64,000 nucleotides of DNA from Spirochaetes bacterium GWB1_60_80 (GTDB taxonomy: Bacteria; Spirochaetota; Spirochaetia; Treponematales; UBA12059), in contig MIAR01000037.1 of assembly GCA_001829185.1 (NCBI GenBank), positions 1 through 64,000 on the forward strand, in the 5' to 3' direction. The position numbers and the translations under genes are program-made. This document shows, one piece after another, positions 25,480-63,963 of this stretch. Position 1 is the stretch's first letter. Each line of letters starts with the position of its first letter. The notes under the pieces are model-generated. The model saw only the letters and a program-made list of their open reading frames with translations, had not been told where the DNA came from and did not search any database.

Positions 25480-27267
25480 ATGAAGCAGCGAACCATATTC
25501 TGTCTGGTCATCTTCTGCCTCCTGGCTAGTCAGGCCTCCGCCCAGTACCAATTAAGCGAAGCTGAGAAACGCTGGTTGGCGGAACGCGAAGAAGTGGTTT
25601 TTGCCGGTCAGATTTCCTATCCGCCTTTCGAATTTATCCACCCGCGCTATGGCGATTACACGGGCATGTCGATTGACTTGATCCGCTGGATTGCCACCGA
25701 GTACGGTTTCACGACGGTCTTTCGGCCCATGCCCTTCGCTGCCGCCCAACAGGCGGTGGTCATCGGCACGGCCGACGCCATGACCGGTATCTTTGAAAGC
25801 GAAGAACGCCGCCAACGCTATGATTTCAGCGACGAGGTCTTCGCGGTACCGGCTTCCATCTTCGTCCACGCCGAACGCAACGACATCATCGAACTTCTGG
25901 ATCTGGATGGCAAACGGGTGGCCGTCCAGCGCGGCGACTACGCCATCGAGTACCTGGGCGCGCAGAACATCGAGGTCGACTGGGTCTATACCACCGACTT
26001 TCAGACGGCCCTGGCCATGGTGGCCGCGCGCGAGGCCGACGCCTTGATTGGCGACGAGCAGATCGTCTACTGGCACCTGTACAGCGCCAGCCTGACCAAT
26101 ACCATCAAGAAGGTGGCGACCGCGCTGTACATCGGGTCGGACTGCATGGCCGTGGCTAAGGGCAACAGCATCTTACTGTCCATCCTGCAAAAAGGCCTGC
26201 GCAAAGCCAAGGCCACCGGCGTGCTGCGAACCATCGGTCAGAAGTGGCTGGGCGTCTCCTTTGCCGTCGAGGAGCCAGGGCTGGACCGCTGGCGCTGGCC
26301 GCTGATTATCGGCCTGGCCTTGATGGCTCCGCTCAGCTTGGGCGTGCTGTTGTGGACCATGCAGCTACGCCGACTGGTGCGTAGCAAGACCACCGAACTG
26401 CAGAACCTGAACGCGCACCTGCGCCAGAGCAATGAGTCGCTCAGCTACGCTAACAGTCAACTGATGAAGGATATGGAGGAACGCGCCCGCTTGGCCGAGG
26501 AAGGCCGGCGCCTGGAAGCGCGCATGATCAAGGCCCAAAGCCACGAAAGCCTGGCCCTGATGGCCGGCAACATTGCCCACGACTTCAACAACAGCCTGAT
26601 GGGCATTATCGCGGCCATCGATTCGGCCCTAGCCCTTCAGCCGGGCGAGCCTCTGGACGAAACAACCAGGCAGAACCTGGCCAGCGCCGGCGGCAAAGCC
26701 AAAAGCGCTGGCGAATTGGCGCGGCGGATGTTGGAATTCGCCGGACAAAGCTCCTTTAACCGGGTAAATATCACGCTGAACGAACTATTGCGCGACGTGC
26801 AACCCTTGCTAGCGGCCAGTACGGCCGCGGCCATCGAGATCATTAACGCCATACCCGACGAAGCAATCGCCATCAAGGGCGATCCCGGACAGATCAAGCA
26901 GGCCATCCTCAACCTGCTCATCAACGCCGTGGAGGCTTCGGCCGAGTCGCGTCTACCGGTCCAGCTGACCCTATGGCGGGGCCAGCTGGCCGAACCAGGC
27001 CGGCACCAGGCGAGAGCCGGCAACGAATTGCCGCCCGACGAGTACGCCCACATTCGCATCCAGGACACCGGCAGCGGCATCGACCGAACCATCATGGAGC
27101 GGCTGTTTGACCCGTATTATACCACCAAACGAGCTGGCCGGGGCCTCGGCCTGGCGGCGGCGGCCGGTATCATCAAGGCTCACGGCGGCGCCATTACCGT
27201 AGAAAGCGACCGGCATCACGGCAGCTGTTTTACCATCATTCTGCCCCTGGTTGAACCAGCCGGCTGA
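25480..27267 (+). CDS. sensor histidine kinase with periplasmic solute-binding sensor domain
   Basis: The 595-residue protein has a signal sequence (CLVIFCLLASQASA), one SBP_bac_3-type sensor domain (about 25-260; VVFAGQISYPPFEFIHPRYG and YTGMSIDLIRWIATEYGF), a membrane helix (~270-292), a coiled coil (~300-350), a HisKA domain with H367 (GNIAHDFNNSLMG) and an ATPase domain (NLLINAVEAS; DTGSGID; GRGLGLAAAAGIIKAHGG). It resembles BvgS/EvgS-type sensors without receiver domains. It probably senses an amino acid or similar small solute. No regulator gene is adjacent. Confidence 0.92.
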   Translation: MKQRTIFCLVIFCLLASQASAQYQLSEAEKRWLAEREEVVFAGQISYPPFEFIHPRYGDYTGMSIDLIRWIATEYGFTTVFRPMPFAAAQQAVVIGTADAMTGIFESEERRQRYDFSDEVFAVPASIFVHAERNDIIELLDLDGKRVAVQRGDYAIEYLGAQNIEVDWVYTTDFQTALAMVAAREADALIGDEQIVYWHLYSASLTNTIKKVATALYIGSDCMAVAKGNSILLSILQKGLRKAKATGVLRTIGQKWLGVSFAVEEPGLDRWRWPLIIGLALMAPLSLGVLLWTMQLRRLVRSKTTELQNLNAHLRQSNESLSYANSQLMKDMEERARLAEEGRRLEARMIKAQSHESLALMAGNIAHDFNNSLMGIIAAIDSALALQPGEPLDETTRQNLASAGGKAKSAGELARRMLEFAGQSSFNRVNITLNELLRDVQPLLAASTAAAIEIINAIPDEAIAIKGDPGQIKQAILNLLINAVEASAESRLPVQLTLWRGQLAEPGRHQARAGNELPPDEYAHIRIQDTGSGIDRTIMERLFDPYYTTKRAGRGLGLAAAAGIIKAHGGAITVESDRHHGSCFTIILPLVEPAG

Positions 27268-60748: not shown

Positions 60749-61060
60749 TCATGCCTCCTTGGAAACATGTTGGCCAGGTTTCCATAATCCTACGGTCCGA
60801 TCCAGATTGTTCCGGGACGGCGCGTAGCCGGGGTCGAGCGACAAGGCCGCCCGGTAATAATTCTGGGCTTGCCAGCGATTACCCTGGAGCTCCATCATGA
60901 TGCCGAGGGCGTTGTAGACTTCCGGCCGCGAATAATCCAGGGCGATAGCCTGCCGCAGCAAGGCATCGGCCTCAGCGAAGCGGCCGCTCCTGAGGTCGGC
61001 CACCGCCGCTTGGACGCAGCGCCAGTAGTCGTCATGGTCAACTTTTTCCCGCTTCTTCAT
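60749..61060 (-). CDS. TPR-repeat protein
   Basis: The 103-residue cytoplasmic protein carries about two tetratricopeptide repeats (SGRFAEADALLRQAIALDYS; NALGIMMELQGNRWQAQNYY). GGGAG lies before the ATG. It ends two bases before the first TrkA gene, so translation is coupled and it is likely to act with the Trk system or to be a passenger in the operon; TPR folds mediate protein contacts. Divergent from the SecA-leader gene. Confidence 0.85.
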   Translation of the reverse strand: MKKREKVDHDDYWRCVQAAVADLRSGRFAEADALLRQAIALDYSRPEVYNALGIMMELQGNRWQAQNYYRAALSLDPGYAPSRNNLDRTVGLWKPGQHVSKEA

Positions 61061-61240
61061 GCGCGACTCCCTTCCTCCGGCTGGCTTCCGGCCGGCCGAT
61101 CCCGGCTCCCGCCGCGGTGTGCGGGCGGAGAGCGGTCCACGCTTTCATGATAGCGAAAAGCGCGTAAAGAGGGTGTTAAGATTCGGCCTCTGGTATTAAG
61201 AGTCGGTTGGCACCACGTGCACCCCGTTCGGAACCATAAT

Positions 61241-61269
61241 TTGACGGGCTTGGCAAAAGGCGGTATATT
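61241..61269 (+). promoter_or_regulatory. promoter of the leader ORF - SecA-like operon
   Basis: TTGACG (61241-61246), exactly 17 bases, TATATT (61264-61269). Five of six bases match at each box. Transcription should begin near 61276, next to the ATG at 61277, which makes the leader ORF leaderless and leaves about 280 bases before the SecA-like gene. Confidence 0.75.
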
Positions 61270-61276
61270 GGTAAAC

Positions 61277-61501
61277 ATGACCGTAGTTTGGACAATCTTC
61301 GGCATAGCGGAAGCCCTGCACCGTCTCTTGGCCTCGAAAGGCATCCGCCGTCTGATCGGCGGCTGGTTGCGCGACTATGCCCTGGCCGCCTGCTGGCCGC
61401 TTGTTCCGGACGGTTGGCAGCCGCTGTCCGCCAGCCTGGCCCGGCCGGCCGCCTTCCTGGCCGCCCGCCGCGGTTCAAACCCGCGCGCTCCGCCCGCCTG
61501 A
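61277..61501 (+). CDS. 74-codon leader ORF ending in RAPP, upstream of the SecA-like gene
   Basis: The ATG lies seven bases after the -10 box. The predicted 74-residue peptide starts with a hydrophobic segment (TVVWTIFGIAEAL), has an amphipathic middle with WLRDYALAACWPLVP, and ends ARRGSNPRAPPA before the stop. The tetrapeptide R-A-P-P near the C-terminus is the stalling motif of known arrest peptides (ApdP and ApcA types; RAGP in SecM), which regulate sec genes downstream. The codons of the motif contain GCTCC (61487-61491), complementary to the GGAGC of the SecA ribosome-binding site (61549-61553). In GC-rich DNA an open frame of this length can occur by chance, so coding is unproven. Confidence 0.45.
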   Translation: MTVVWTIFGIAEALHRLLASKGIRRLIGGWLRDYALAACWPLVPDGWQPLSASLARPAAFLAARRGSNPRAPPA

Positions 61502-61557
61502 GCCCCTTTCCTGATACCGGCCCTTCCGGGTTCGGCAACCAGCGACGAGGAGCTACC

Positions 61558-63963
61558 ATGAACAAAAAATTATCACCTTTTGCCACCCGCCTGGCCCATG
61601 CCCTGAGCACCGCCAAAGGCGTGCCGATCATTGATGACCTGGCGGCGGCCAGGGAAACCGCCGGACGGGTACGCGCCGCCCTGGCCAGCCTCGGCCAATC
61701 AAGCAGCCTAGCCGACCAGATGGCCGCCTTGCGCGCCACTGCGCCACGGCGAACTAGCCAAACCGACCAGGCTGGCCGGCGTGGCCAAGGCCCGACAGCC
61801 GCCGCGGCCGCCGACCGCCTGGTGGCGGCCTTCAGCCTGGCAACGGCCGCCTTCCGAAGCGCCTTGGGCGTCGAACTGTTCGACGAGCAACTGGTAGCGG
61901 CGGTCGTCATGGCCGGCGGCGGCCTGGCCGAGCTGGCCACCGGCGAGGGCAAGACCTTTGCCGCCGCCCTGGCCGCCGGCTACTGGGCGCTGGACGGCCG
62001 GGGTTGCCATATCCTGACGGCCAACGATTACTTGGCCGAGCGCGACGCCCGTTGGCTTGAGCCGGTCTATCAAGCCCTTGGCCTGTCCTGCGCCTTCGTA
62101 ATCCAGGGCATGGCGCCGAACGAGCGACGGGCGGCCTACCAGGCTGACATCACCTACCTGACCGCCCGTGAGGCCGGCTACGACTACCTGCGCGACCGGC
62201 TGGCTGGCGCTCCGGCCGAACTGGTGCAGCGCGGCCTCGATTCGGCGCTGGTCGACGAGGCCGATTGCCTGCTGATCGACGAGGCGCGCTCGCCGCTGGT
62301 GATAGCCGACCGGGCCGACGGCGCGCCGGAGGACTTGACCGTATTCGGTGCCATCGCCGGCAGCCTGGTTCCCGGGCAGGATTTTCAGGCCGAAGCGAAC
62401 AGCCACGGTCTCGGCTTGACCCTGGCCGGCCAGGAACGGGTGGCCTCCGCCCTGGGCAGCGGCGGCATGCACCAACCGGAAGACCGCGAGCGCTTTGCCC
62501 GGGTGCATGCCGCCCTGTACGCCCGCTGCTTCCTGGAGCGCGACCGCGATTACCTCGTCAAGGCAGCTTCCCTCCAGTTGGTGGACGAGCTGACCGGGCG
62601 GGTGGCCCAGGGCCGGCGCTGGCCATACGGCGTCCAAGCCGCCGTCGAGGCGCGCGAAGGCCTGCCGCCCGTGGCCGAGAGCGCTATCCTCGGCTCAATA
62701 ACCCTGCAGCGCTTCATCCCGCTCTACCGCCGCATCGCCGCCATGACGGCCACTGCCGCCCCGGCGGCGGAAGAATTCTTCACCATTTACGGCCTGGCCG
62801 TGCATGTCATACCGCCGCGCCTGCCCTCGCGCCGCGTTGATGCTCCCGACCGGCTGTTCCGAACCATTGCTGGCAAGGAGGCTGCCATCGTGGCCGAGGT
62901 GGCGGCCGAGCAAGAGCGCGGCCGGCCGGTGCTGCTGGCCACCTCGTCAGTGGCCGACTCGGAGCGCTTGGCGGACCAGCTGCGCGCCGCCGGCGTGCCG
63001 TGCCAAGTGCTCAACGCCCGCAACGACCAAGACGAGGCGCTGGCCATCGCCGCCGCCGGCTGCCAAGGCGCGGTGACGGTATCCACCGACATGGCCGGTC
63101 GCGGTACCGACATCCAGCTAGGCGGCCCACAAGCCTCGGCCGCCGAACGCACCCGGCTGGCGAAACTGGGCGGCCTGTACGTGCTGGGTTGCGCTCGCCG
63201 CGAAAGCCGCCGCCTGGACGACCAGCTACGCGGCCGGGCTGGCCGCCAAGGCGATCCTGGACTGACGCGCTTCTACTGCAGCCTGGAAGACCCGTTGTTC
63301 GCGCGCTACGGCGTGGCTGCCTTCCTGCCACCAGAATACTTGCAGTCAATCGGCCCGGCCGACTCCGAGCTCCACGACCGCCGGGCCAGCCGCGAAATCG
63401 ACCGCGCCCAACGCCTGATCGAAGGCCACCACCACCGAGTGCGCGATGCCCGACGCCGCTCCAGCCAATTATTCGAGCTCCACCGTCGACGCATCGCCAG
63501 CCTGCGTGAAGCTTGCCTCTTTGGTCTGGATGGCGACGTGCGTCGCGGCCGGCTGGCGGCCATCGACGGCTTCTGGACAGAGCACCTGGCGGCCTATGAG
63601 GAATTGCGCGAGGGCATCCACCTGGTGCGCTACGCCGGGCGCGACCCGGACCGCGAGTTCGACCGCCGGCTGGATGAGGCCTTCGAGGCCGGGTTATCCG
63701 CCTGCGGCTTGCGCGATGGCGACGACGCGAGCGCCGCCGAGGCAAGCGCCAGCGCGGCGGAGGCTGACGTGAGCGCTTGGCCGGCGCGTCGGCCGGGCGG
63801 CGCCGGCGCGACCTGGACCTACCAGATCGACGAGGAGCCGGTCGAGCCCTTCCGGCTGCCGTCGGTCATGAACGGCGCCTCGCTGGTCGAGTCGGTGGTG
63901 CAGGTGCCACTGTCGCTGCTGCGCGCCTTGCGGGCCATCTGGCGGCGGTGGCGGCGGACATGA
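61558..63963 (+). CDS. SecA-type preprotein translocase ATPase (accessory, SecA2-like)
   Basis: The start at 61558 (MNKKLSPFATRLAHAL) follows GAGGAGC at four to five bases; the open frame upstream to 61288 shadows the leader ORF. The 801-residue protein has SecA motor motifs: ELATGEGKT (GEGKT 129-133), LTANDYLAERDARW, VDEADCLLIDEARSPL, STDMAGRGTDIQLGG and LRGRAGRQGDPG. It lacks the C-terminal zinc/SecB-binding tail and its helical scaffold is shorter and more arginine-rich than housekeeping SecA (about 840-930 residues). It might be the only SecA or an accessory one; the divergent sequence favours accessory. A new ORF begins inside its stop codon. Confidence 0.88.
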   Translation: MNKKLSPFATRLAHALSTAKGVPIIDDLAAARETAGRVRAALASLGQSSSLADQMAALRATAPRRTSQTDQAGRRGQGPTAAAAADRLVAAFSLATAAFRSALGVELFDEQLVAAVVMAGGGLAELATGEGKTFAAALAAGYWALDGRGCHILTANDYLAERDARWLEPVYQALGLSCAFVIQGMAPNERRAAYQADITYLTAREAGYDYLRDRLAGAPAELVQRGLDSALVDEADCLLIDEARSPLVIADRADGAPEDLTVFGAIAGSLVPGQDFQAEANSHGLGLTLAGQERVASALGSGGMHQPEDRERFARVHAALYARCFLERDRDYLVKAASLQLVDELTGRVAQGRRWPYGVQAAVEAREGLPPVAESAILGSITLQRFIPLYRRIAAMTATAAPAAEEFFTIYGLAVHVIPPRLPSRRVDAPDRLFRTIAGKEAAIVAEVAAEQERGRPVLLATSSVADSERLADQLRAAGVPCQVLNARNDQDEALAIAAAGCQGAVTVSTDMAGRGTDIQLGGPQASAAERTRLAKLGGLYVLGCARRESRRLDDQLRGRAGRQGDPGLTRFYCSLEDPLFARYGVAAFLPPEYLQSIGPADSELHDRRASREIDRAQRLIEGHHHRVRDARRRSSQLFELHRRRIASLREACLFGLDGDVRRGRLAAIDGFWTEHLAAYEELREGIHLVRYAGRDPDREFDRRLDEAFEAGLSACGLRDGDDASAAEASASAAEADVSAWPARRPGGAGATWTYQIDEEPVEPFRLPSVMNGASLVESVVQVPLSLLRALRAIWRRWRRT

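Follow-up and report, generated by a model that had tools for sequence, protein, structure and literature searches.

In a stretch of 64,000 nucleotides from Spirochaetes bacterium GWB1_60_80 (contig MIAR01000037.1, hereafter the window), positions 61277 to 61501 of the forward strand very probably (we put the probability at about 0.82) encode a translation-arrest leader of the RAPP type that controls the accessory secA gene lying downstream. An earlier note on this DNA had proposed an arrest leader that senses secretion in front of a SecA gene. This proposal is largely right, with the refinement that the gene under control would be an accessory secA and not the housekeeping one.

A short ORF ending in RAPP precedes secA

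The leader ORF specifies 74 aa (ATG at 61277, TGA at 61499-61501) and its sequence is as the note had described it, a 74-codon frame ending NPRAPPA-stop ahead of a SecA homologue. The full C-terminus reads S-N-P-R-A-P-P-A-stop, with one residue after the RAPP motif, which is encoded at 61484-61495 (+) by CGC GCT CCG CCC and for which a stall register can be predicted after ApdA and ApdP (PMC10951233). The spacing of 56 bases once given as reaching the ribosome-binding site has the right length, but it separates the stop codon of the leader from the ATG of SecA. The N-terminus is moderately hydrophobic and, as had been suspected, holds no clear signal peptide, the best 19-residue KD mean being 1.32, a value reached by 45% of shuffles. 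The leader has no match in Pfam, NCBIfam or Rfam, and neither an intrinsic terminator nor an attenuator was found in the interval that separates it from secA. The secA frame itself is open from a TTG at 61288 to 63963 and thus overlaps nearly the whole leader in another frame, which looks like an effect of GC bias.

The downstream gene encodes an accessory SecA

The gene at 61558-63963 (+) encodes a SecA2-like protein of 801 aa with the SecA DEAD, preprotein cross-linking and P-loop domains and part of the wing/scaffold, and without a C-terminal zinc tail. None of the named equivalogs of SecA and SecA2 matches the protein with a score above its curated cut-off (among those of SecA2, 585 vs 725 for TIGR04221, 417 vs 930 for TIGR03714, 498 vs 1085 for TIGR04397, and 392 vs 1100 for NF012136). 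A second, canonical SecA of ~930 aa, carrying a C-terminal CPCGSGKKYKHCHG zinc tail, is encoded on another contig of the same genome. In a tree of 26 SecAs, the window protein forms one clade (support 100/99) with those of a congener (G001), of another genus of the same family (G004) and of another family of the order (G041); the sister of this clade (100/99) is the SecA of G430, a genome belonging to a different class of the phylum, and all five stand apart from the canonical SecAs. Since the protein belongs to a separate clade and a canonical SecA with a zinc tail is also present, we take it on sequence grounds to be an accessory SecA and not the housekeeping enzyme. Furthermore, the accessory SecA tree joins G004 with G041 (100/98), whereas among the canonical SecAs G004 groups with G000 and G001 (99/99), a conflict that suggests horizontal transfer of the leader-secA pair.

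Several features of these and other SecA loci deserve mention in their own right. The zinc tail is absent from the four accessory SecAs with intact ends (window 63820-63963; L023, L024 and L092), which have in common a C-terminal x-T-W-T-Y-x3-(E/D)(E/D) motif seen in no other SecA scanned; three of the four continue beyond this motif with a hydrophobic or basic tail, which might bind the membrane. The accessory secA of G430 is preceded by a uORF of 130 aa (L092 956-1348; L135:4322-4714) with a signal-like N-terminus, no RAPP and the same leaderless-type promoter as the leaders described here, and this uORF may carry another arrest sequence. A divergent second SecA in G315 (718 aa) has, 52 nt upstream, an ORF of 116 aa (L136 3600-3950) with two hydrophobic segments and no RAPP. 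Finally, in a genome of the same order, a SecA-like match (G054:C1:688026-689306) lies inside an open frame of 2098 aa.

RAPP is retained while the rest of the leader drifts

Orthologues were sought in 23 genomes of the window's family, 30 of the family of G041 and wider samples covering the order (394) and the phylum (393), in which the only strong ones were the four of the RAPP-bearing clade and G430. The relatives of the leader were located by way of the downstream SecA and not with the leader protein, searches of the relatives with the latter giving only noise (E >= 0.004), as expected if only its last residues are kept. The leader comparison thus comprises four orthologues in total. Relatives lacking the ORF or its RAPP at this position would have spoken against the earlier proposal, and this was not the outcome. 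The uORF and exact RAPP are present in 4/4 orthologues found in the order, near the uORF C-terminus and at the same place before secA, and the remainder of the leader has drifted. The uORF has 79 aa in G001 (ending SLSPRAPPSTCVF, in short form LSPRAPPSTCVF), 75 aa in G004 (HSARAPPVLA) and 91 aa in G041 (PSARAPPSFA), with 5, 3 and 3 residues after RAPP, respectively, and its stop lies 34-69 nt before the secA ATG in these three genomes. The only invariant positions of the alignment are Met1, R-A-P-P and a few scattered residues; the bodies of the four leaders are barely alignable (20-34% with gaps), and exact RAPP is the sole contiguous block that they keep. The motif is encoded by CGC GCT CCG CCC, by CGC GCT CCC CCC (twice) and, in G041, by CGC GCC CCT CCC, and this synonymous variation at Ala (GCT/GCC) and at the first Pro (CCG/CCC/CCT) indicates that the amino acids are what is kept. 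The leader, its frame, the exact RAPP, its position and the pairing with an accessory SecA are therefore conserved. Indeed, the genes flanking the pair differ among the four loci, which makes leader plus secA the conserved unit.

The association is a narrow one, as RAPP leaders sit before members of that single SecA clade (100/99). Among 91 SecA loci scanned (a number that includes duplicates and the four themselves), no other gene had a uORF with an exact RAPP end in front of it. The canonical secA copies of these four genomes likewise had none, and no convincing case preceded their yidC and secD/secF genes; a SecA scan of genome contigs returned distant SecAs only, without RAPP uORFs. In sequence taken from the four genomes, 5 of the 1361 six-frame ORFs of at least 40 aa have RAPP within their last 12 residues, and four of these five are the leaders. 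By our own arithmetic, chance agreement in three independent orthologues would have a probability of ~1e-8 (three frames, ~1e-3 each).

The four leaders are less uniform at the N-terminus, where a hydrophobic segment is clear in G004 and G041 (KD 2.6-2.8) and weak in the window and G001 (1.3-1.4); clear transmembrane segments are thus present in two of the four. The end of the first hydrophobic segment is separated from the end of RAPP by 54, 55, 44 and 50 aa.

The leaders probably start on leaderless mRNAs

A -35 hexamer TTGACG (61241-61246, +) and a -10 hexamer TATATT (61264-61269, +) are separated by a spacer of 17 nt, and the latter ends 7 nt before the leader ATG. This near-consensus promoter, already pointed out in the earlier note, is the only sigma70-like match in 61000-61700 (0.2 expected). 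The same geometry is found in the three relatives and in G430, with a spacer of 17 and a gap of 6-7 nt between -10 and ATG throughout, the hexamers at the four loci and G430 being TTGACG/TATATT, TTGACT/TACTTT, TTGCCT/TATCTT, TTGCCT/TATTTT and TTCTCA/TATATT. Judged by the best promoter lying 5-8 nt upstream, the ATG takes rank 1-3 among all start-like codons at each of these five loci. A gap of 6-7 nt, together with the usual distance to the transcription start, would place the mRNA start at or beside the ATG, and all four leaders thus probably begin on leaderless mRNA. We considered whether such a promoter is a special feature of the leader and rejected the idea, as other plausible genes have a comparable arrangement in front of them. 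In the window, those at 25480 (+), 48497 (+) and 47193 (-) have a sigma70-like -10 ending 6 nt before the ATG, so that the layout appears to be a habit of the lineage, and leaderless mRNAs may be common in this genome.

Predicted RNA folds favour, weakly, the freeing of the SD by ribosome stalling

The Shine-Dalgarno sequence of the accessory secA is GAGGAGC (61547-61553, +), and in the local fold a predicted anti-SD arm at 61500-61512 (+) pairs with this ribosome-binding site and would lie partly under a RAPP-stalled ribosome. In folds that begin at RAPP and reach the start of secA, the SD is predominantly paired at all four loci (mean unpaired probability 0.42, 0.17, 0.15 and 0.13), and the predicted pairing arm lies in RAPP or within about 20 nt 3' of it. 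The arm consists of the RAPP codons in G001, of the stop and next bases in the window, and of the codons after RAPP in G004 and G041, the last of which has a predicted ten-pair helix of CCUCCUUCGC with GCGAAGGAGG. The complementarity first noticed between GCTCC in the motif codons and the SD does exist, but it is one of several pairings, and elsewhere the anti-SD arm is found just 3' of RAPP.

The predicted cost of opening the SD is 6.6, 7.4, 11.9 and 8.4 kcal/mol at the four loci, and it falls to 2.7, 2.2, 6.4 and 3.1 kcal/mol once the bases that would lie under a stalled ribosome, its P site on the first Pro codon, are masked. The sequestration by folding that had been proposed is thus in the right direction in 4/4, but its excess over shuffles is weak. 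With the 5' arm shuffled, 25, 6, 15 and 14% of the sequences attain the cost seen at the respective locus, fractions that are not significant for single genomes and that combine by Fisher to p ~ 0.04 (own arithmetic). Furthermore, in three of four folds of the whole naked leader, the SD pairs with other partners. We regard the predicted folding as suggestive of SD release by a stalled ribosome, at all four loci and weakly above shuffles.

Proposed mechanism and alternative explanations

By analogy with the known family of arrest peptides, for the stalling, its force-dependent release and the feedback, and by prediction, for the sequestration of the SD and its relief, the following sequence of events may be proposed. 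The sigma70-type promoter would yield a leaderless or nearly leaderless mRNA, from which a short, membrane-directed leader peptide would be translated. A ribosome stalled at RAPP would cover the RNA just 3' of the motif that otherwise pairs with the secA SD, so that the SD would be freed and SecA2 made. When the nascent leader is pulled efficiently into or across the membrane, the stall would be released and the SD would close again. In this way, cells would keep SecA2 as a spare motor, inducible upon failure of export or insertion. Taken as a whole, this picture of a RAPP sensor set on an inducible backup SecA without a zinc tail, translated from a leaderless mRNA, passed between families as a two-gene cassette and called upon when export or insertion fails, is a tentative one, and we judge its chances to be a little short of even.

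RAPP stalling might instead control secA2 in response to a small molecule, a metal or translation stress in general. Genes with other functions, among them that of the copper-responsive CruR, also follow RAPP leaders (PMC12992588), and the N-terminal signal is weak in two of the four leaders; nevertheless, the gene that follows the leader here encodes a Sec motor, and transmembrane segments are clear in two of the leaders, which makes a cue unrelated to export unlikely in our opinion. We find it improbable that uORF translation is merely coupled to secA2, opening the SD with no regulated stall and with RAPP causing slight slowing or being incidental. Any ribosome translating or terminating near the stop is also predicted to lower the SD opening cost, but coupling needs no particular amino acids, and a motif that is strongly avoided in bacterial proteomes (PMC12992588) is precisely what the leaders keep.

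The nature of what is conserved bears on two further explanations. That the uORF encodes a small membrane protein acting after synthesis as a partner of SecA2 would agree with its hydrophobic segments and its constant linkage to secA2, yet a body that hardly aligns combined with fixed last residues is the reverse of what a structured partner would display, and we hold this to be very improbable. It is scarcely credible that a nucleotide element (the anti-SD CGCGCTCC) is the conserved entity and the peptide a by-product. In the window and G001, the SD sequence GGAGC has its complement, GCTCC, in the RAPP codons, but in G041 RAPP is spelled differently (GCC CCT) and the SD pairs with codons 3' of the motif, and in G004 its partner also lies outside the motif, so that the arm moves and the peptide stays. 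Against the proposed RAPP-type arrest it may be said that only four orthologues were found in the genomes searched, and that the uORF before the related accessory SecA of G430, from another class, bears a signal but no RAPP.

With RAPP-type arrest retained as the preferred reading, these leaders would extend the RAPP arrest peptides, as putative members, to the accessory SecA of a spirochaete lineage, and would give accessory SecA function a testable context, that of a motor induced under export stress. They also illustrate how a leader may evolve, four residues and their position being kept through the turnover of body, signal and RNA pairing. Should the mRNA prove leaderless, the stall would come after leaderless initiation, a combination of which we found no case in the literature searched.

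Comparison with known arrest systems

RAPP stalling has been established structurally for ApdA and ApdP (PMC10951233), and the motif is concentrated near the C-termini of small secretory or membrane proteins, including some encoded before sec genes (PMC12992588). ApdA of actinobacteria and ApdP of alphaproteobacteria, both located before secDF, have the identical RAPP core and the same predicted stall register as the window leader (RAP in the P site and Pro-tRNA in the A site), and differ from it in downstream gene and lineage.

The closest description is that of the RQH peptides (uA_RQH and uDF_RQH), defined by a small uORF upstream of secA, secDF or yidC, a C-terminal RAPP-like motif conserved among homologues (at least three in an order), an N-terminal signal or transmembrane segment placed >30 aa from the arrest site, and ribosome stalling at the motif (PMC10987492). 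Here, a same-strand uORF of 74 aa, to which families assign no function, lies 56 nt before a secA homologue, the exact RAPP end recurs in 4/4 orthologues of the order, and the spacing in the four leaders is 44-55 aa. The leader thus shares with the RQH peptides a small uORF directly before a sec gene, a C-terminal RAPP, an N-terminal hydrophobic region, though a weak one in the window and G001, the spacing beyond 30 aa and the lack of overall similarity between members (PMC10987492), but it differs from them in its accessory rather than housekeeping SecA target and its probable leaderless mRNA. The main texts of the literature searched do not mention Spirochaetota as bearers of such peptides, and we found in them no report of an arrest leader that belongs to an accessory SecA or occurs in a spirochaete.

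The earlier note had called the leader SecM-like, which holds for a RAPP-type arrest peptide and not for a SecM homologue. The arrest sequence of SecM is F-x4-WI-x4-GIRAGP (PMC10987492). The window leader, ending SNPRAPPA, lacks it, and identity with SecM was therefore rejected. It shares with E. coli SecM-SecA the position before a secA gene, a motif of the RA-x-P type and, by prediction, the logic of SD release, but it is short, has no clear cleavable signal peptide and adjoins a SecA paralogue.

In MifM-YidC2 and VemP-SecDF2, an arrest leader controls a second (backup) copy of a localisation factor. The likeness to the window pair would lie in this placing of an arrest leader on a spare copy, the arrest sequences and target genes being unrelated; in their narrow and short spacing, the four leaders (n=4) are also nearer to MifM (median 54) than to SecM or VemP. 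If SecA2 is indeed a backup motor made when export or insertion fails, the leader and its gene would be the SecA counterpart of MifM-YidC2 and VemP-SecDF2.
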